Part shown: in pieces, positions 15,032-21,134 of the stretch
Layout: every line of letters begins with the position of its first letter
Position numbering within the stretch: position 1 is the stretch's first letter
Assembly: GCA_902826575.1 (NCBI GenBank)
Contig: CADEFJ010000006.1
Coordinates: 2,413 to 61,457, forward strand
Source of the DNA: an uncultured Pseudomonadota bacterium
GTDB lineage: Bacteria; Pseudomonadota; Gammaproteobacteria; Steroidobacterales; Steroidobacteraceae
Reading direction: 5' to 3'
DNA length: 59,045 nucleotides
The notes under the pieces: model-generated
What the model saw: the letters and a program-made list of their open reading frames with translations, nothing else
Database searches by the model: none
Told to the model about the DNA's origin: nothing
Position numbers and translations under genes: made by a program

Positions 15032-18000
15032 ATGAGCACGCCGCTGCACGCCGCCATCGCCGGCGACCTCGCCCCGGGGCTGTTTCGGGACATGGCCGAA
15101 CAGTGGCCGGGCGCCGTCATGGTCGTCAATCGTGAAGGCGTCATCCGCTGGTTGAACGACGCTGCGCACGATTGGGCGCCGCCCGGCGCTGGTGCGCTGA
15201 TCGGCGCGTCGATCGACAGCATGCACCTGCCCTGGCTGCAGGATCACCACGATCTGGCGGTGGTCCTGCTGGGAGGGGCCCAGCAGCTCGCGCCCCGCGC
15301 GGTCATCGACCGACACGGTCGCGAGCGCTACTGCGGGCTGCGACTCGTGCCGCTGCGCCGTGGGCAGGTGATTTGCGGCGCGATGCTGTTCGTCGAGGAA
15401 GGCCCTGCGGTCGACGGCTCGACCATCTTGCAGGCACCGCCGATGTCCGACACCGCCCGCGCCATCGCCCTCAGCGCATCCGAGGTCGGTGTGTGGAGCC
15501 GCGACCTGCACAGCGGGGAAGGTGGCGTCGACGCGGTGTGGTGCGCGGCGCTGCGCCTCGACCCCTGCACGGGTCCCGATCATGTCGCGCGCTGGGAAAA
15601 ACAGGTCCATCCCGACGACCTGTCGGCGTACCGCGAGAGCTGGGACGAATTCACGCAGGGCGCCAGGGCCTCTTTCGAAGCGGAGTTCCGCGCGCTCACC
15701 GCCGACTCGCGCTGGCTGTGGCTGCTGCAGCGCGGGCAGGTGGTCGAACACGACGAAGCCGGGCGACCGCGGCGCACTGCCGGCATCTGCATCGAGATCG
15801 ACGCGCGCAAGCGTGCCGAGGTCGCACTGCAGGAGAAAGAGTCGCGTCTCGCCACGGCATTGTGGGGCGCGCGCGCCGCCTTCTGGCACTGGAACATCAC
15901 GAGCGACGTCTCGACGCACAGCGCCATGTGGTTCGCGATGACGGGCTACCAGCGCGAGGAATGGGAACGCCAGGCGCGGCCCTGGCATTCCCGCCTGCAT
16001 CCCGACGACGCCGAGCGCGTCGAGCGTACGATCCGCGACCACTTCGAGGGGCGCACCCAGTCGCTCGAGATGGAGTACCGGATCCGCGTCGCCTCGGGCG
16101 AGTACCGCTGGATGCAGGATCGCGGTCGCGTCAACGAGTGGGATTTCGAGGGCAACCCGACCGTCGCGATTGGCGTCTCGCTCGACATCGAGTCGCAGAA
16201 GCGGGCCGAACTCGAACTGCGAGCCAGCGAGGCGCGCCTCGAAACGGCCGTCTGGGGCGCAAAGATCGGGCTCTGGGAACTCGACCTCGGGACGGGCCAG
16301 GCGCGCTGGTACAACGACTGGTGCGAACAGGTGGACTTCGATGCCTGCGAGGGCGCCGATCACCAGGCGCGCTGGGAGGCGAACATCCACCCCGACGATC
16401 GCGCCGAAGTGGACCGCAGCTTCGACGAGCATTTCGCGGGGCGCGTCGAGCATTACGATGCCGAGTATCGCGTGCGCACGCGCGGCGGCGAATGGCGCTG
16501 GATCTTCGAGCGCGGGCGCGTCACGGCGCGCGCGCCGGACGGCTCGCCATTGCGGATCGTCGGCGTGTGCATGGACATCGATGAGCGCACGGTCGCGGCA
16601 CGCGATGCGCGCGAATTGCGCGAGCGCCTCGAACGTGCGATCGACGTGGCCCGCATCGGCATCTGGAGCTGGGATGTCCACGACGGCGTGTTCCACTGCA
16701 ACGATCTGTACGCCGACTACGCTTGCGGTGGCGAGGTGCCGCGGGATGCGGCCGAGCGCCAGCGTGCGCGCATGGCGCGCATGCATCCGGACGACATCGA
16801 GGCTATGCGCATGCTCGAAGAGGCGGTGCGCGCCGGCAGGCAGGACGAGTTCGAATGCCGGCACCGCGTGCGCCACGCGCACGGCGACTGGCGCTGGGTC
16901 CTGCAACGCGGTCGCGTGACCGCGCGCGCAGCCGACGGCTCCCCCGCCCACATGGCCGGCTTCCTGGTCGACGTCAGCGACAGTTACGAAGAGGTCAGGA
17001 CGCGCGAGAAGGCCGTGGCGAAGCTGCAGACCCTCGCCGAGCACGCGCCTGACTACCTGCTGCTGCTCGATCGCGACCTGCGCGTGCAGATCGCGAACCG
17101 CGGCTGGGGCGCTCACCGCGCGGCCGACATCGTCGGACGCAGCGTGCTCGACTTCGTGCCGGAGGCGAACCGGCAGGTGCTCACCGAGCTGTATACCAAT
17201 GTGCTCGCCAACGGCACGTCGGACGAGCGCACGGTCGAGCAACCGCGGGCCGATGGCAGCGGAACGCTGGCCTTCGTGCATCGTGTCTCGGCAGTGCGGG
17301 AAGGCGGCGTGGTCACCGGTCTCACGCTCGCGATGACCGATGCCACGGCGCGTCTGCGGGCGGAGGAACGCTCGCGCGCGACCGAGTCGGTACTGCGGAC
17401 GATCGCCGAGGTGACTTCGGACTGGCTCGTCATGCTCGATGCGGACCTGCGCTTCACCTTCATCAATCGCAGGATCGGCGGCCACGAGCCCTGCGAGATC
17501 ATCGGGCGCAGGCTCGCCGAGCTTCCGTTGCGGGTACTGGGCAGCGGCGTGCGTGAACTGGTCGAGAGCGTGCTGCGCAGTGGCCGGCCGCGCACCGAGG
17601 AGCACGACTTCCTCGCCCCCGACGGTGCGCCGCGCCGCTTCGAGCTGCGGGTTCGGCCGGTGCACGCGACAGCGACCGGGAGCGGCCCCGGACAGGGCCT
17701 CGTGATCACGGCCACCGATGTGACGAAACGAAAGGCGCTCGTGCGCGAGATCCTCGAGATCGCCCATCGCGAGCAGCAGCGCATGGGCAGCGATCTCGAC
17801 GACGGGGTGGTCGAGAACCTCACCGGCATCGCGTTGCAGTTGCGCGGCGTGGCCGGGCAGCTGCGCAAAGAGGGCTCGGAAGCGCGGGCCGACGTCGAGG
17901 AAGTCATCGGCCAGGTCAATGCGGCGATCGAGACCACGCGGGCGCTGGCGAGTGGTCTGTCGCTCGTCGGTGCCGAGCGCGGTGGGCTCGTCGCCGCGCT

Positions 18001-18391
18001 CGAAACGCTTGCCGTGCGCACGCAGGACCGGCATGGTGCAAAGGTGGAGGTGGTGGCGCGGCTCACCACCCCCCTTGTACTTGGCCATGGAGCGCTCGAT
18101 CATCTGTACCGGATCGCTCAGGAAGCAGTGATCAATGCTGTACGGCATGGACAACCGAAGCACGTGCGGATCGAACTCACGCTGGAGGACGGTCGGGTCC
18201 GGCTTCGCGTCAGCGACGACGGTCGCGGCCTCGGGCCTGCGGCTGCCCATTCGACCGGACTTGGGCACAGGATCATGCGCTTCCGGGCGCAGCTGCTCGA
18301 TGGCGAACTCACCTTCAAGCCAGGTGAGCCGGGTCTCGTCGTGGAGTGTGTATGTCCGGTAACGAACCACCAGCGCGCCGCACTGTCCTGA
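15032..18391 (+). CDS. Seven-PAS NarL-type sensor kinase homologue lacking the phospho-acceptor His
   Basis: A 1119-residue cytoplasmic protein without transmembrane segments. About seven PAS domains are arrayed: one at ~25-125, four PAS_3-like units at ~145-650 with repeated RW..HPDD and (W)RW(I/V)..RGR...DGSP motifs, and two at ~660-900. A DHp segment of the HisKA_3 type follows, then a HATPase with N-box QEAVINAVRHG, DDGRGLG and GLGHRIM. In the DHp motif where relatives have L-H-D, this protein reads L-D-D: codon 923 is GAC (17798-17800). The rest of the motif, EQQRMGSDL..GVVENLTGIALQ, is intact. Kinase activity by His autophosphorylation is therefore doubtful. The start at 15032 is preferred over in-frame upstream ATGs, which precede no conserved sequence. 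It overlaps its response-regulator gene by 40 bases. Confidence 0.87.
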   Translation: MSTPLHAAIAGDLAPGLFRDMAEQWPGAVMVVNREGVIRWLNDAAHDWAPPGAGALIGASIDSMHLPWLQDHHDLAVVLLGGAQQLAPRAVIDRHGRERYCGLRLVPLRRGQVICGAMLFVEEGPAVDGSTILQAPPMSDTARAIALSASEVGVWSRDLHSGEGGVDAVWCAALRLDPCTGPDHVARWEKQVHPDDLSAYRESWDEFTQGARASFEAEFRALTADSRWLWLLQRGQVVEHDEAGRPRRTAGICIEIDARKRAEVALQEKESRLATALWGARAAFWHWNITSDVSTHSAMWFAMTGYQREEWERQARPWHSRLHPDDAERVERTIRDHFEGRTQSLEMEYRIRVASGEYRWMQDRGRVNEWDFEGNPTVAIGVSLDIESQKRAELELRASEARLETAVWGAKIGLWELDLGTGQARWYNDWCEQVDFDACEGADHQARWEANIHPDDRAEVDRSFDEHFAGRVEHYDAEYRVRTRGGEWRWIFERGRVTARAPDGSPLRIVGVCMDIDERTVAARDARELRERLERAIDVARIGIWSWDVHDGVFHCNDLYADYACGGEVPRDAAERQRARMARMHPDDIEAMRMLEEAVRAGRQDEFECRHRVRHAHGDWRWVLQRGRVTARAADGSPAHMAGFLVDVSDSYEEVRTREKAVAKLQTLAEHAPDYLLLLDRDLRVQIANRGWGAHRAADIVGRSVLDFVPEANRQVLTELYTNVLANGTSDERTVEQPRADGSGTLAFVHRVSAVREGGVVTGLTLAMTDATARLRAEERSRATESVLRTIAEVTSDWLVMLDADLRFTFINRRIGGHEPCEIIGRRLAELPLRVLGSGVRELVESVLRSGRPRTEEHDFLAPDGAPRRFELRVRPVHATATGSGPGQGLVITATDVTKRKALVREILEIAHREQQRMGSDLDDGVVENLTGIALQLRGVAGQLRKEGSEARADVEEVIGQVNAAIETTRALASGLSLVGAERGGLVAALETLAVRTQDRHGAKVEVVARLTTPLVLGHGALDHLYRIAQEAVINAVRHGQPKHVRIELTLEDGRVRLRVSDDGRGLGPAAAHSTGLGHRIMRFRAQLLDGELTFKPGEPGLVVECVCPVTNHQRAALS

Positions 18392-19029
18392 TCGTCGACG
18401 ACCATCCCATCGTGCGCCAGGGCCTCGCGCGCATGATCGAAGCCGCTCCCGACCTGTCCGTATGCGGCGAAGTCGAGAACCTGGCGGATGCGAGGCGCGC
18501 CATTCGCGAACTGCAACCCGACGTGGTGATCGTCGACCTGACCCTGGGGCAGGGCGACGGCCTCGAGCTCGTGCGCGACGTGCGCGCGCATCATCCGCGC
18601 CTGCCGATGCTGGTGCTCACCATGCACGAGGAGGGCATCTACGCCGAGCGGATGCTGGCCGCCGGTGCACGCGGTTACATCATGAAGGAGGCGGCGTCCG
18701 AGCAGTTGCTGACCGCCCTGCGCCGCGTCCTCGCGGGCAAGGTGTATCTCAGCGATGCGCTGGCTGCGCGCCTGCGCGCCCGCGACGCCATGCCGGAGGG
18801 CGAGGCGACCGAGGATCCTCTGTCCCGGCTCAGCAACCGCGAAATCCAGGTACTCGCGAAGCTTGGCCGGGGGATGTCCTCGCGCGCGATCGCGAGCGAT
18901 CTCACGGTGTCGGTGAAGACCGTCGAGTCCCACCGCCAGAGCATCAAACGCAAGCTCAACCTCGCTTCCAACTCGCAACTGCTGCAATACGCGCTGAGCT
19001 TCGTGGCCTCGACCCGCGGGGGCGCCTGA
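18352..19029 (+). CDS. NarL/FixJ-family response regulator
   Basis: A 225-residue response regulator. The receiver domain (about 12-130) keeps the acidic pair in LIVDDHP (Asp16/Asp17), phospho-accepting Asp62 in VIVDLTLG, the Thr in VLTMHE and the Lys in IMKEAA. The C-terminal LuxR-type HTH (about 155-215) contains LSNREIQVLAKLGRGMSSRAIASDLTVSVKTVESH. The start is inside the kinase gene (ATG 18352; a GTG at 18346 is an alternative), so the pair is translationally coupled. The receiver looks fully competent although the partner kinase lacks its His. Confidence 0.93.
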   Translation: MSGNEPPARRTVLIVDDHPIVRQGLARMIEAAPDLSVCGEVENLADARRAIRELQPDVVIVDLTLGQGDGLELVRDVRAHHPRLPMLVLTMHEEGIYAERMLAAGARGYIMKEAASEQLLTALRRVLAGKVYLSDALAARLRARDAMPEGEATEDPLSRLSNREIQVLAKLGRGMSSRAIASDLTVSVKTVESHRQSIKRKLNLASNSQLLQYALSFVASTRGGA

Positions 19030-19080: not shown

Positions 19081-19102
19081 AGCCATGCATAAGGAGGATC
19101 CC

Positions 19103-19675
19103 TTGGCAGACGGTGGGACAGCGAGCGCCCGGGTCATGGACGTGGCGGGCATCGAAGATGCGCTGGTGGTACGGGCGCGGCGGGGCGATGCACGGGCGTT
19201 CGAGCGCCTGTATCGCGAGCACGCCGGTCGGGTCCACGGCCTGTGCCTGCGGATGACCCGCGATCCGCAGCTGGCCGAGGACTACACGCAAGAGACATTC
19301 ATCCGGGCATGGCGCGCACTCGATCGCTTCGAGGCGCGCAGCCGGATGTCGACCTGGCTGCACAGGATCGCCGTCAACGTGATCCTCGAACACCGCCGCC
19401 GCCGTGATGTGCCTCTGGAGTTCGTCGAGGACGCGGCAGACTACGAACGCGACAACGACACGCTCGATACGCCTGTCGAAGAGGCGGAGCTAGAAGCGGC
19501 GATCGGCTCGCTGCCGCCGGGCGCGCGTGACGTGCTGACGCTCTGCGGGATTTACGGTTACGCCCACGGTGAGGCCGCCGCGATGCTCGGTATTGCGGAA
19601 GGGACCTGCAAGGCACAGCTGCACCGCGCGCGTGCCCTGATGCGCGCGCGGTTGGCGGGTGGAGAAGCACGATGA
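19103..19675 (+). CDS. ECF RNA polymerase sigma factor
   Basis: A 190-residue group-IV sigma-70 factor. Sigma region 2 (about 30-95) contains FERLYREHAGRVHGLCLR and AEDYTQETFIRAWRAL; region 4 (about 130-180) contains LPPGARDVLTLCGIYGYAHGEAAAMLGIAEGTCKAQLHRARALMR. The start is decided by a perfect AAGGAGG at 19091-19097 five bases before TTG 19103; the in-frame ATG at 19085 lies upstream of that Shine-Dalgarno and would have none of its own. The stop overlaps the next ATG (ATGA), typical of sigma/anti-sigma pairs. It lies just downstream of the response regulator, which might feed into it. Confidence 0.9.
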   Translation: MADGGTASARVMDVAGIEDALVVRARRGDARAFERLYREHAGRVHGLCLRMTRDPQLAEDYTQETFIRAWRALDRFEARSRMSTWLHRIAVNVILEHRRRRDVPLEFVEDAADYERDNDTLDTPVEEAELEAAIGSLPPGARDVLTLCGIYGYAHGEAAAMLGIAEGTCKAQLHRARALMRARLAGGEAR

Positions 19676-20232
19676 TCAAGCACGAACGCAAGGTGGGCTC
19701 GCCCGGTGACTTGCCGCAGGACATTGCGCCGGGGCGCGACCTGTGGCCCGGCATCGCCGCGGCCATCGGCGCCGATGCCGGACCGCGCACCGGCAGTGCG
19801 GCAATGGCGCCGCCGCCTCGACCCCATACCCCGCATCCGCTGCTGGCGCTGGCCGCCGCGGCAGCCTGCGTGGCGGTGGGTGTGTGGCTCGGTCGCGCAA
19901 CAGCGCCCCCGCCCACCGCGGCCGTCGCACCACCGCCATCGAGCGCCGTGCCGGTCAGCTATGCGCCGGATGCGCGCTTCGATCGCACGCGCGAGGAACT
20001 GTTGCGGGACGTGGGCGTGCGCCTGGCCGCCCTGCCACCGGAAAGCCGCGCGAAGGTCGAGGCGAGCCTCGCCGACCTGCAGCGTGCGCGCACCGAGATC
20101 GAATCGGCGCTCGGGCGCGATCCGGGCAATGCACTGCTGCAGGCCATGTTGGTGAACAGTTATCAGGACGAGATGCGGGTGCTCGCGGCGGTACGCGAGA
20201 CGTGGGCATCCATAGAGGAGATTGGAGCATGA
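19672..20232 (+). CDS. Putative membrane anti-sigma factor
   Basis: A 186-residue single-pass membrane protein. A cytoplasmic N-terminal part (1-55; contains LPQDIAPGRDLWPGIAAAI, a phrase common in anti-sigma factors of this type) precedes a transmembrane helix at about 58-76 and a proline-rich periplasmic linker. The periplasmic part (about 100-180) is helical and likely coiled coil (ESRAKVEASLADLQRARTEIESAL). There is no zinc-binding HxxxCxxC motif, so it is not a ZAS protein. Function is inferred mainly from four-base overlaps with the sigma gene before it and the DUF4097 gene after it. Confidence 0.7.
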   Translation: MIKHERKVGSPGDLPQDIAPGRDLWPGIAAAIGADAGPRTGSAAMAPPPRPHTPHPLLALAAAAACVAVGVWLGRATAPPPTAAVAPPPSSAVPVSYAPDARFDRTREELLRDVGVRLAALPPESRAKVEASLADLQRARTEIESALGRDPGNALLQAMLVNSYQDEMRVLAAVRETWASIEEIGA

Positions 20233-21134
20233 GAATGTATGCGATGAAGGACGTCGTCGGCTTTGCGCTGGTCGCGATGTTGCTGGCGACACCAGCGCTG
20301 GCGCGCGACGACCGGCCGCTCAATGAGCGCATCGCGGCCGACGCGGACGGTGAGGTGATCGTCAGCAATGTCAGCGGTTCGGTACGCGTCGAAGGTTGGG
20401 CCCGGAACGAGGTCGAGGTGACCGGCTCCATCGATGAAGACGTGGAGCGCGTCGAGGTGGCGCGTGACGGCAAGCGGGTGACCGTCAAGGTGGTGCTGCC
20501 GAAGGGTTCATCGAACGATTCGGACGCCGACCTCACGATCCGGGTGCCGGCCGCATCGCGCCTCGAGGTGACCAGCGTCAGTGCCGATGGCACGGTGCGC
20601 GGTGTCACCGGCGCACTGCGGCTGAAGTCGGTGAGCGGCGAGATCGAGGCCCGCGGCGTCGCGAGCGACAGTGATTTCAAGACCGTCAGTGGCGACATAC
20701 GCGTCGCGGCGGCAGCGACGCCGGTCAAGCTGCGCGCCACCAGCGTCAGCGGCACGATCATCGTCGACGATGTGTCGGGCGAAATCGAAGCGCTGACGGT
20801 GAGCGGAGAAATGCTGCTCGACCTCGATGCCATCACGTACGCCCGGGCGAGAACCACCTCGGGTGACTCCCGCGTCAGCGGGCAGCTCGCGAAAGATGCC
20901 CGGGTCGAGTTCGAAAGCGTGAGTGGCGACGTGATCCTGAAGCTCGGCTCCGAGGCGGGCTTTGCCGCCAGCGCGGAGTCGTTCAGCGGCGAGCTGTCGA
21001 ACTGCTTCGGGGTGAAACCCGAGGCGGTGAGCAAGTACGGGCCGGGGGAGCGGATGTCGCTGACACGCGGCGAGGGCAGCGCGCGGGTACGCATCCAGAC
21101 GATGAGTGGCGATGTGAGGATCTGCGACCGCTGA
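20229..21134 (+). CDS. Exported DUF4097 repeat protein
   Basis: A 301-residue protein with a Sec signal peptide (about 1-24, ending ALA) and a right-handed beta-solenoid-like DUF4097 domain. The repeat unit is about 20-25 residues with the recurring (S/T)VSG(E/D/T) turn, visible at least eight times (NVSGSV, SVSGEI, TVSGDI, SVSGTI, DVSGEI, TVSGEM, TTSGDS, SVSGDV). Such proteins frequently accompany ECF sigma/anti-sigma genes in gammaproteobacteria; a role in envelope sensing or as the regulon target is plausible but unproved. Its ATG overlaps the previous stop by four bases. Confidence 0.85.
   Translation: MRMYAMKDVVGFALVAMLLATPALARDDRPLNERIAADADGEVIVSNVSGSVRVEGWARNEVEVTGSIDEDVERVEVARDGKRVTVKVVLPKGSSNDSDADLTIRVPAASRLEVTSVSADGTVRGVTGALRLKSVSGEIEARGVASDSDFKTVSGDIRVAAAATPVKLRATSVSGTIIVDDVSGEIEALTVSGEMLLDLDAITYARARTTSGDSRVSGQLAKDARVEFESVSGDVILKLGSEAGFAASAESFSGELSNCFGVKPEAVSKYGPGERMSLTRGEGSARVRIQTMSGDVRICDR

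Follow-up and report, generated by a model that had tools for sequence, protein, structure and literature searches.

A HisKA_3 sensor kinase with Asp in place of the acceptor His, a probable pseudo-histidine kinase of a single lineage

A sensor kinase with seven PAS domains, encoded in a window of 59,045 nucleotides (the whole stretch of DNA analysed here) from an uncultured bacterium of the Steroidobacteraceae, carries replacements at both catalytic positions of its DHp domain: the phospho-acceptor His is Asp (Asp923), and Glu (Glu928) stands where the DxxxQ phosphatase motif has its Gln. Read from its sequence and its relatives, the protein is probably a lineage-specific HisKA_3 pseudo-histidine kinase, predicted to be dead as a kinase and as a phosphatase and kept for sensing and docking. 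By sequence, the PAS array, the ATP-site motifs, the reading frame, the gene order and the response regulator are all kept in this lineage. What could such a sensor still do? Pseudo-histidine kinases are already known, and this one offers a clear test of a two-component sensor working by binding alone. Its orthologues elsewhere in the genus share the gene order and bear the normal His; with them as natural controls, both catalytic losses can be assigned to a single branch.

The kinase gene, its acceptor column and its relatives

The features discussed here are as follows (coordinates of the window, scores from domain matches).

15032..18391, plus strand: gene of the sensor kinase (1119 aa; seven PAS domains, then HisKA_3 and HATPase_c), with Asp for the acceptor His
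15098..15373, plus strand: PAS domain 1 (PAS_4), 35.9 bits, cut-off 23.1
15584..15787, plus strand: PAS domain 2 (PAS_3), 49.9 bits, cut-off 25.6
15920..16177, plus strand: PAS domain 3 (PAS_3), 72.6 bits
16307..16567, plus strand: PAS domain 4 (PAS_3), 66.5 bits
16763..16963, plus strand: PAS domain 5 (PAS_3), 47.7 bits
17039..17353, plus strand: PAS domain 6 (PAS_4), 41 bits
17411..17734, plus strand: PAS domain 7 (PAS_4), 58.9 bits
17771..17959, plus strand: HisKA_3 (DHp) match, PF07730, residues 914-976, 28.7 bits, cut-off 24
17798..17800, plus strand: Asp923 at the phospho-acceptor position, codon GAC; His in six genus orthologues
17813..17815, plus strand: Glu928 at the position of the DxxxQ phosphatase Gln; Gln in six genus orthologues
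18098..18346, plus strand: HATPase_c ATP-binding domain, residues 1023-1105, 43.8 bits, cut-off 26.4; N-box and glycine boxes visible in the alignment
18352..19029, plus strand: NarL/LuxR-type response regulator, receiver and GerE domains by domain matches; overlaps the end of the kinase gene
18535..18537, plus strand: acceptor Asp62 of the regulator, codon GAC, numbered by hand from the ATG at 18352
19085..19675, plus strand: ECF sigma factor, at the same position in six genus relatives
19672..20232, plus strand: conserved small protein after the ECF gene, no Pfam match at E 0.001
20229..21134, plus strand: DUF4097 protein, belonging to the same conserved gene block

The kinase frame (15032-18391) reads through all 1119 codons with zero stops and zero frameshifts, and its PAS array consists of seven segments in series, every one above the Pfam cut-off of its own PAS family. 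A scan for promoters and terminators between 14800 and 19200 found none. Is Asp923 really in the place of the acceptor? The sequence-only reading had said so, pointing to the GAC codon within the motif R-M-G-S-D-L-D-D-G, and this stands: the codon was read in frame, the HisKA_3 profile matches around it, and the alignment places Asp923 in the acceptor column. That column was counted over 43 distinct loci (49, L001-L049, minus five duplicates and minus L048, which had no match at E 1e-6), of which 39 have His, one, the window kinase, has Asp and three lack cover, so that His is found in 39 of the 40 covering loci. Five residues downstream (H+5), the same 43 loci have 37 Gln, one Glu (the window kinase), one Gly (L001) and one Pro (L027), with three again lacking cover. 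L001, from contig C46 of the window's own genome, and L027 are themselves HisKA_3-type kinases that have the His but not the usual phosphatase Gln. No other His fits the acceptor position of the window kinase; the nearby His of the motif EIAH-REQ was considered and set aside as a replacement acceptor because it also occurs in L052 and L053, which carry the normal acceptor His too.

Two features of an active HisKA_3 histidine kinase are present, the HisKA_3 match over its cut-off and the HATPase_c domain with its boxes, and two are lacking, the phospho-acceptor His and the complete DxxxQ motif, of which D924 is retained and the Gln replaced. A protein otherwise whole with catalytic residues missing shows one of the marks of a pseudo-histidine kinase, and the earlier suggestion of a pseudokinase is thus backed at the level of sequence. 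The same reading held that everything besides the acceptor was intact. This is true of the PAS domains, of the ATP-site motifs and of the regulator with its Asp62, but it does not hold for the DHp domain, in which the window kinase alone departs at nine columns that do not vary among the five full-length genus orthologues: H923D, L926V, S927V, Q928E, D929N, M936Q, R948G, L961Q and P978L. Six of them (H923D, L926V, Q928E, M936Q, L961Q and P978L) stay unique to the window when the comparison is widened to the sixth orthologue, which is truncated, and to two outgroups from the family. The sequence-only reading had remarked on neither the second catalytic change, Q928E, nor the cluster around it. 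H923D and Q928E each correspond to one C-to-G change, whereas neither codon 927 nor codon 936 can be explained by fewer than two base changes; with eight further constant columns altered beside it, H923D is not a one-base slip, and the single-base cause proposed for it was too simple. The DHp changes, on their sequence, look like ordinary divergence rather than base-call error. In the CA domain, the GLGL box carries L1079H.

The transmitter was searched in 40 genomes including the window's own and found a match in 32 of them at E 0.001; further transmitter searches covered seven genus genomes, again including its own, and genome contigs (16 loci). Six genus relatives have one close orthologue apiece, 63-72% identical in the transmitter, with the acceptor His and with Gln at H+5. 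Five of the six orthologues are full length on their contig and alignable across nearly the entire protein, the contig of L052 stopping inside the kinase gene. The gene order around the kinase (regulator, ECF sigma factor, DUF4097 protein and further genes) is the same in all six relatives as far as the contigs extend. One orthologue per relative in the same gene order implies that the change occurred on the window's own branch and that the gene is not a recruited paralogue. The window's genome, a draft of 225 contigs and 89% completeness that is probably metagenome-assembled, is the sole one with the Asp/Glu variant. At that completeness it yields only two further HisKA_3 matches, both with His; in the search of this genome they score 51.4 and 45.5 bits, against 33.4 for the window kinase.

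Evolutionary rate along the protein

Where in the protein did constraint change? Over the six full-length sequences, the rate was counted as substitutions found in a single sequence where all the others agree. For the PAS region (901 columns) this gives 43 in the window kinase and 16, 50 (L051), 32, 24 and 17 in the others, or 139 together; for DHp plus CA (213 columns) the window kinase scores 18, and the others 2, 2, 1, 7 and 1, or 13 together. The window and L051 are two long branches and raw counts favour both, so other regions of the same six were used as controls. One of them, a set of eight neighbouring genes (64 unique changes in the window against 259 in the others), excludes the regulator, whose count had seven sequences. 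The excess of the window kinase in DHp plus CA is clear against these neighbours (Fisher one-sided, p = 1.1e-5) and against the PAS region (p = 1.9e-4). As the site had been picked for its oddity, the test was rerun without H923D, with p = 2.9e-5 and 4.0e-4, respectively. For DHp alone, and leaving out both H923D and Q928E, the excess is modest (p = 0.008 against the neighbours, 0.024 against PAS). The same test against PAS in the five other lineages gives p from 0.138 to 0.999.

Branch lengths on a fixed tree place the difference between the two long branches mostly in the DHp domain, where the window has 0.227 against 0.025 for L051 and is the longer branch in 60 of 60 column bootstraps. For PAS the lengths are 0.311 and 0.345, with the window longer in 14 of 60 bootstraps, and for CA 0.366 and 0.246, with 55 of 60, although the interval of the CA difference spans zero. 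Non-synonymous distances in the DHp domain are 0.105-0.145 for the five pairs that include the window and 0.046-0.080 for the ten others. The DHp dN/dS between window and L051 is about 0.22 (0.105 over 0.47). Synonymous sites have already diverged far (pS 0.28-0.59 across the pairs and regions compared). By these sequences, the constraint that sets the transmitter apart from the sensor in the sister species has weakened in the window lineage, clearly in the DHp domain and less clearly in CA, while the sensor evolves as it does in L051. The CA domain may thus be accelerated too, and together with L1079H this could mean that ATP binding is weakened.

Is the gene then simply on its way to becoming a pseudogene? 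Output function would have been lost in this species, and the regulator would be served by another kinase or act without phosphorylation. The acceleration of DHp, and less clearly of CA, on the window branch fits such an early decay, as do the hydrophobic-to-polar changes M936Q and L961Q, and a recent onset could give a similar picture. However, a frame of 1119 residues is open, the DHp dN/dS stays low, and if all constraint had been gone for the time that the DHp changes suggest, the PAS region would be expected to have speeded up as well, where the window has no more unique changes than L051 (the other four having 16-32) and a branch that is no longer. We regard this account as unlikely, if the most serious of the alternatives. 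Since total decay would raise the PAS rate, and that rate is not raised, the protein seems, in the one genome on which this rests, to be kept for a role other than its chemistry.

Residue roles, known systems and competing explanations

What would the two replacements do? Work on NarX found that both the Asp and the Gln of the DxxxQ motif after the acceptor are required for HisKA_3 phosphatase activity (PMC3510030), and the need for the Gln in this class is stated again alongside DesK, whose Gln193 sits where it can orient the attacking water while Asp189 and Leu200 contact the regulator (PMC5231405). ChrS Q191A is likewise described as phosphatase-deficient (PMC9491836). Glu at H+5 is hence predicted to mean loss of phosphatase activity, although the motif is elsewhere written DxxxQ/H (PMC11502775). 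DesK is the nearest solved relative by sequence that spans both domains, and Asp923, Asp924, Glu928 and Leu935 of the window kinase correspond to DesK 188, 189, 193 and 200 (HMMER alignment, hand numbering); both catalytic positions are replaced and the two docking positions, Asp924 and Leu935, retained. From the residue roles in NarX, DesK and ChrS we infer a loss of both kinase and phosphatase function.

The acidic residue at the acceptor position has an engineered parallel. DesK His188 is buried in the phosphatase state; the H188E variant is like phosphorylated DesK and binds DesR, whereas H188V is trapped as a phosphatase (PMC5231405). The window kinase shares with DesK H188E the HisKA_3 class and the acidic acceptor, but its change is natural and comes with a replaced phosphatase Gln and other DHp changes. 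By this analogy, Asp923 may lock the helices into a phosphorylated-like shape, and the phosphomimetic-like state that the sequence-only reading had offered is plausible. Asp at the acceptor together with the loss of the phosphatase Gln would point towards that shape and away from a phosphatase-only sensor.

How might the protein act without chemistry? There would be no autophosphorylation, no phosphotransfer to the regulator and no removal of phosphate from it. Dimerisation and docking of the regulator would, less certainly, persist through the retained Asp924 and Leu935, and PAS signals might then alter docking instead of chemistry. Any phosphate on the regulator would come from elsewhere, for example from a different HisKA_3 kinase encoded in the genome or from a small phosphodonor. 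It would last longer because the local phosphatase is lost. Docking without chemistry is the best supported of three routes, the others being pairing with another kinase and loss of output, as the sensor, the docking residues and the regulator are all kept. A more specific version, put forward tentatively as a possibility, is that the window kinase is a natural counterpart of DesK H188E, a catalysis-free switch evolved in one species lineage, by which a seven-PAS sensor would control the regulator of its own operon by docking alone; Asp923 would fix the phospho-like shape, and Q928E, by abolishing the phosphatase, would keep the docked regulator from being erased.

Which natural system comes closest? 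DivL of Caulobacter, which we take to be of the HisKA as opposed to the HisKA_3 class, acts on another kinase, CckA, and in both respects it differs; the DHp of the window kinase matches HisKA_3 and no second DHp family (E 0.001), and the HisKA-class DHp of the DivL family is absent. DivL is still the best functional precedent, sharing a replaced acceptor (Tyr550) and a PAS domain, and it is reported to have neither kinase nor phosphatase activity and still to bind the regulator DivK~P (PMC4211667).

Structure models speak to the fold of the transmitter and not to its activity. The AlphaFold model of the window transmitter has middling confidence (mean pLDDT 76.3, pTM 0.63), and a control model of the L050 orthologue (mean pLDDT 75.0, pTM 0.61) shows largely the same elements. 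Fold matches of the window model include VraS (CA domain only, rmsd 2.3 A), DesK, among the top ones, CpxA, EL346 and other kinases, and superposition of the two domains is loose, with rmsd 9.1-22.0 A among the 49 further matches listed. As the structure program tends to give back the family fold, the models weakly suggest that the transmitter fold is retained. A break in the H-box helix was considered as a sign of damage and rejected, since the L050 control also breaks at model residues 28-33, offset by a single alignment column and with similarly low confidence.

ChrS of Corynebacterium glutamicum, presumably also of the HisKA_3 class, brings up a second way for a dead kinase to work. Its pseudokinase form likewise sits beside an intact regulator, but it keeps the His and came out of a laboratory evolution experiment, by a frameshift within the CA domain; it acts through cross-phosphorylation by HrrS, with which native ChrS heterodimerises (PMC9491836). 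Could the window kinase pair in this manner with an intact HisKA_3 kinase and steer its phosphate to the regulator? The genome has three HisKA_3 matches, and on contig C4 (L100:4745-6829) it encodes a MASE1-HisKA_3-HATPase_c kinase with a normal His, beside which no receiver domain was found on that contig. However, the transmitters of the two kinases are only 27% identical, and the truncated ChrS pseudokinase itself showed no interaction (PMC9491836). Moreover, five of the six genus relatives, whose orthologue of the window kinase is normal, contain frames of 695-714 residues that resemble the C4 kinase in size and match, so nothing marks the C4 kinase as a new partner. Such a heterodimer, which the sequence-only reading had also named, or hetero-oligomer is in our view improbable.

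An assembly or sequencing artefact would fit a variant seen in a single, probably metagenome-assembled draft genome, but nine substitutions at constant DHp columns within an open frame, two of them in codons that a base-call error would hardly produce, and flanking genes in the order of the relatives, with no sign of a wrong join within the gene, make it very improbable. The phosphatase-only sensor that the sequence-only reading had also proposed draws on the dispensability of the acceptor His for phosphatase activity in HisKA_3 kinases (PMC12632262) and on the phosphatase activity kept by DesK H188V (PMC5231405), but it is opposed by Glu in place of the catalytic Gln and by an acidic acceptor that resembles phosphotransferase-state H188E, unlike H188V, and is scarcely credible.

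The pseudo-histidine kinase with both activities lost, which we prefer, also bears on a wider argument. Were dephosphorylation what pseudo-histidine kinases generally do, the acceptor His would be expected to be lost more often from HisKA_3 than from HisKA domains, and it is not (PMC12632262); in the window kinase the phosphatase residue is lost as well. The same source counts 56 of 16,025 sampled HisKA_3 domains (0.3%) without the acceptor His, the same class of loss as in the window kinase, so the kind of loss is already known and the window kinase represents a rare but known kind of change.

The regulator, the ECF operon and the search for further cases

The regulator has not accelerated, its 5 window-unique changes lying within the range of 0-9 in the six others. 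These include a Ser-to-Thr change at position 92 (numbered from the GTG at 18346), which we take to be the conserved Ser/Thr site. Has the ECF operon downstream taken over the output of the sensor, as had been speculated? The ECF gene also follows the normal, His-bearing kinase-regulator pair in six genus relatives, so a new takeover is not supported. The product of 19672-20232 is a possible anti-sigma partner, by its position only.

Among the matches listed in open-licence literature, no natural HisKA_3 kinase with an Asp acceptor was found described, nor a natural HisKA_3 sensor that combines His to Asp with Gln to Glu and stands next to an intact regulator in its operon. The Asp motif R-[I/M]-x-x-[D/E]-[L/F]-D-D-G was also run as a DNA pattern, covering some codon choices and motif forms and thus no census, over 396 genomes of the order. 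It gave 24 matches in 24 genomes including the window's, against one match for the reversed control, and of these 24, read in frame and by eye, that of the window alone reads as HisKA_3. The corresponding His-form pattern gave 73 matches at the DNA level in 59 of the 396 genomes, with 7 for its reversed control. Nine of the other 23 Asp-motif matches (L076-L084) share one context, presumably DnaE-like. On contig C4, apart from the MASE1 kinase, a UvrD-like helicase frame of 1097 residues (L100:9358-12651) has an Intein_splicing match (41.4 bits, cut-off 35.8) at residues 283-610, between the helicase halves, and may carry an intein.
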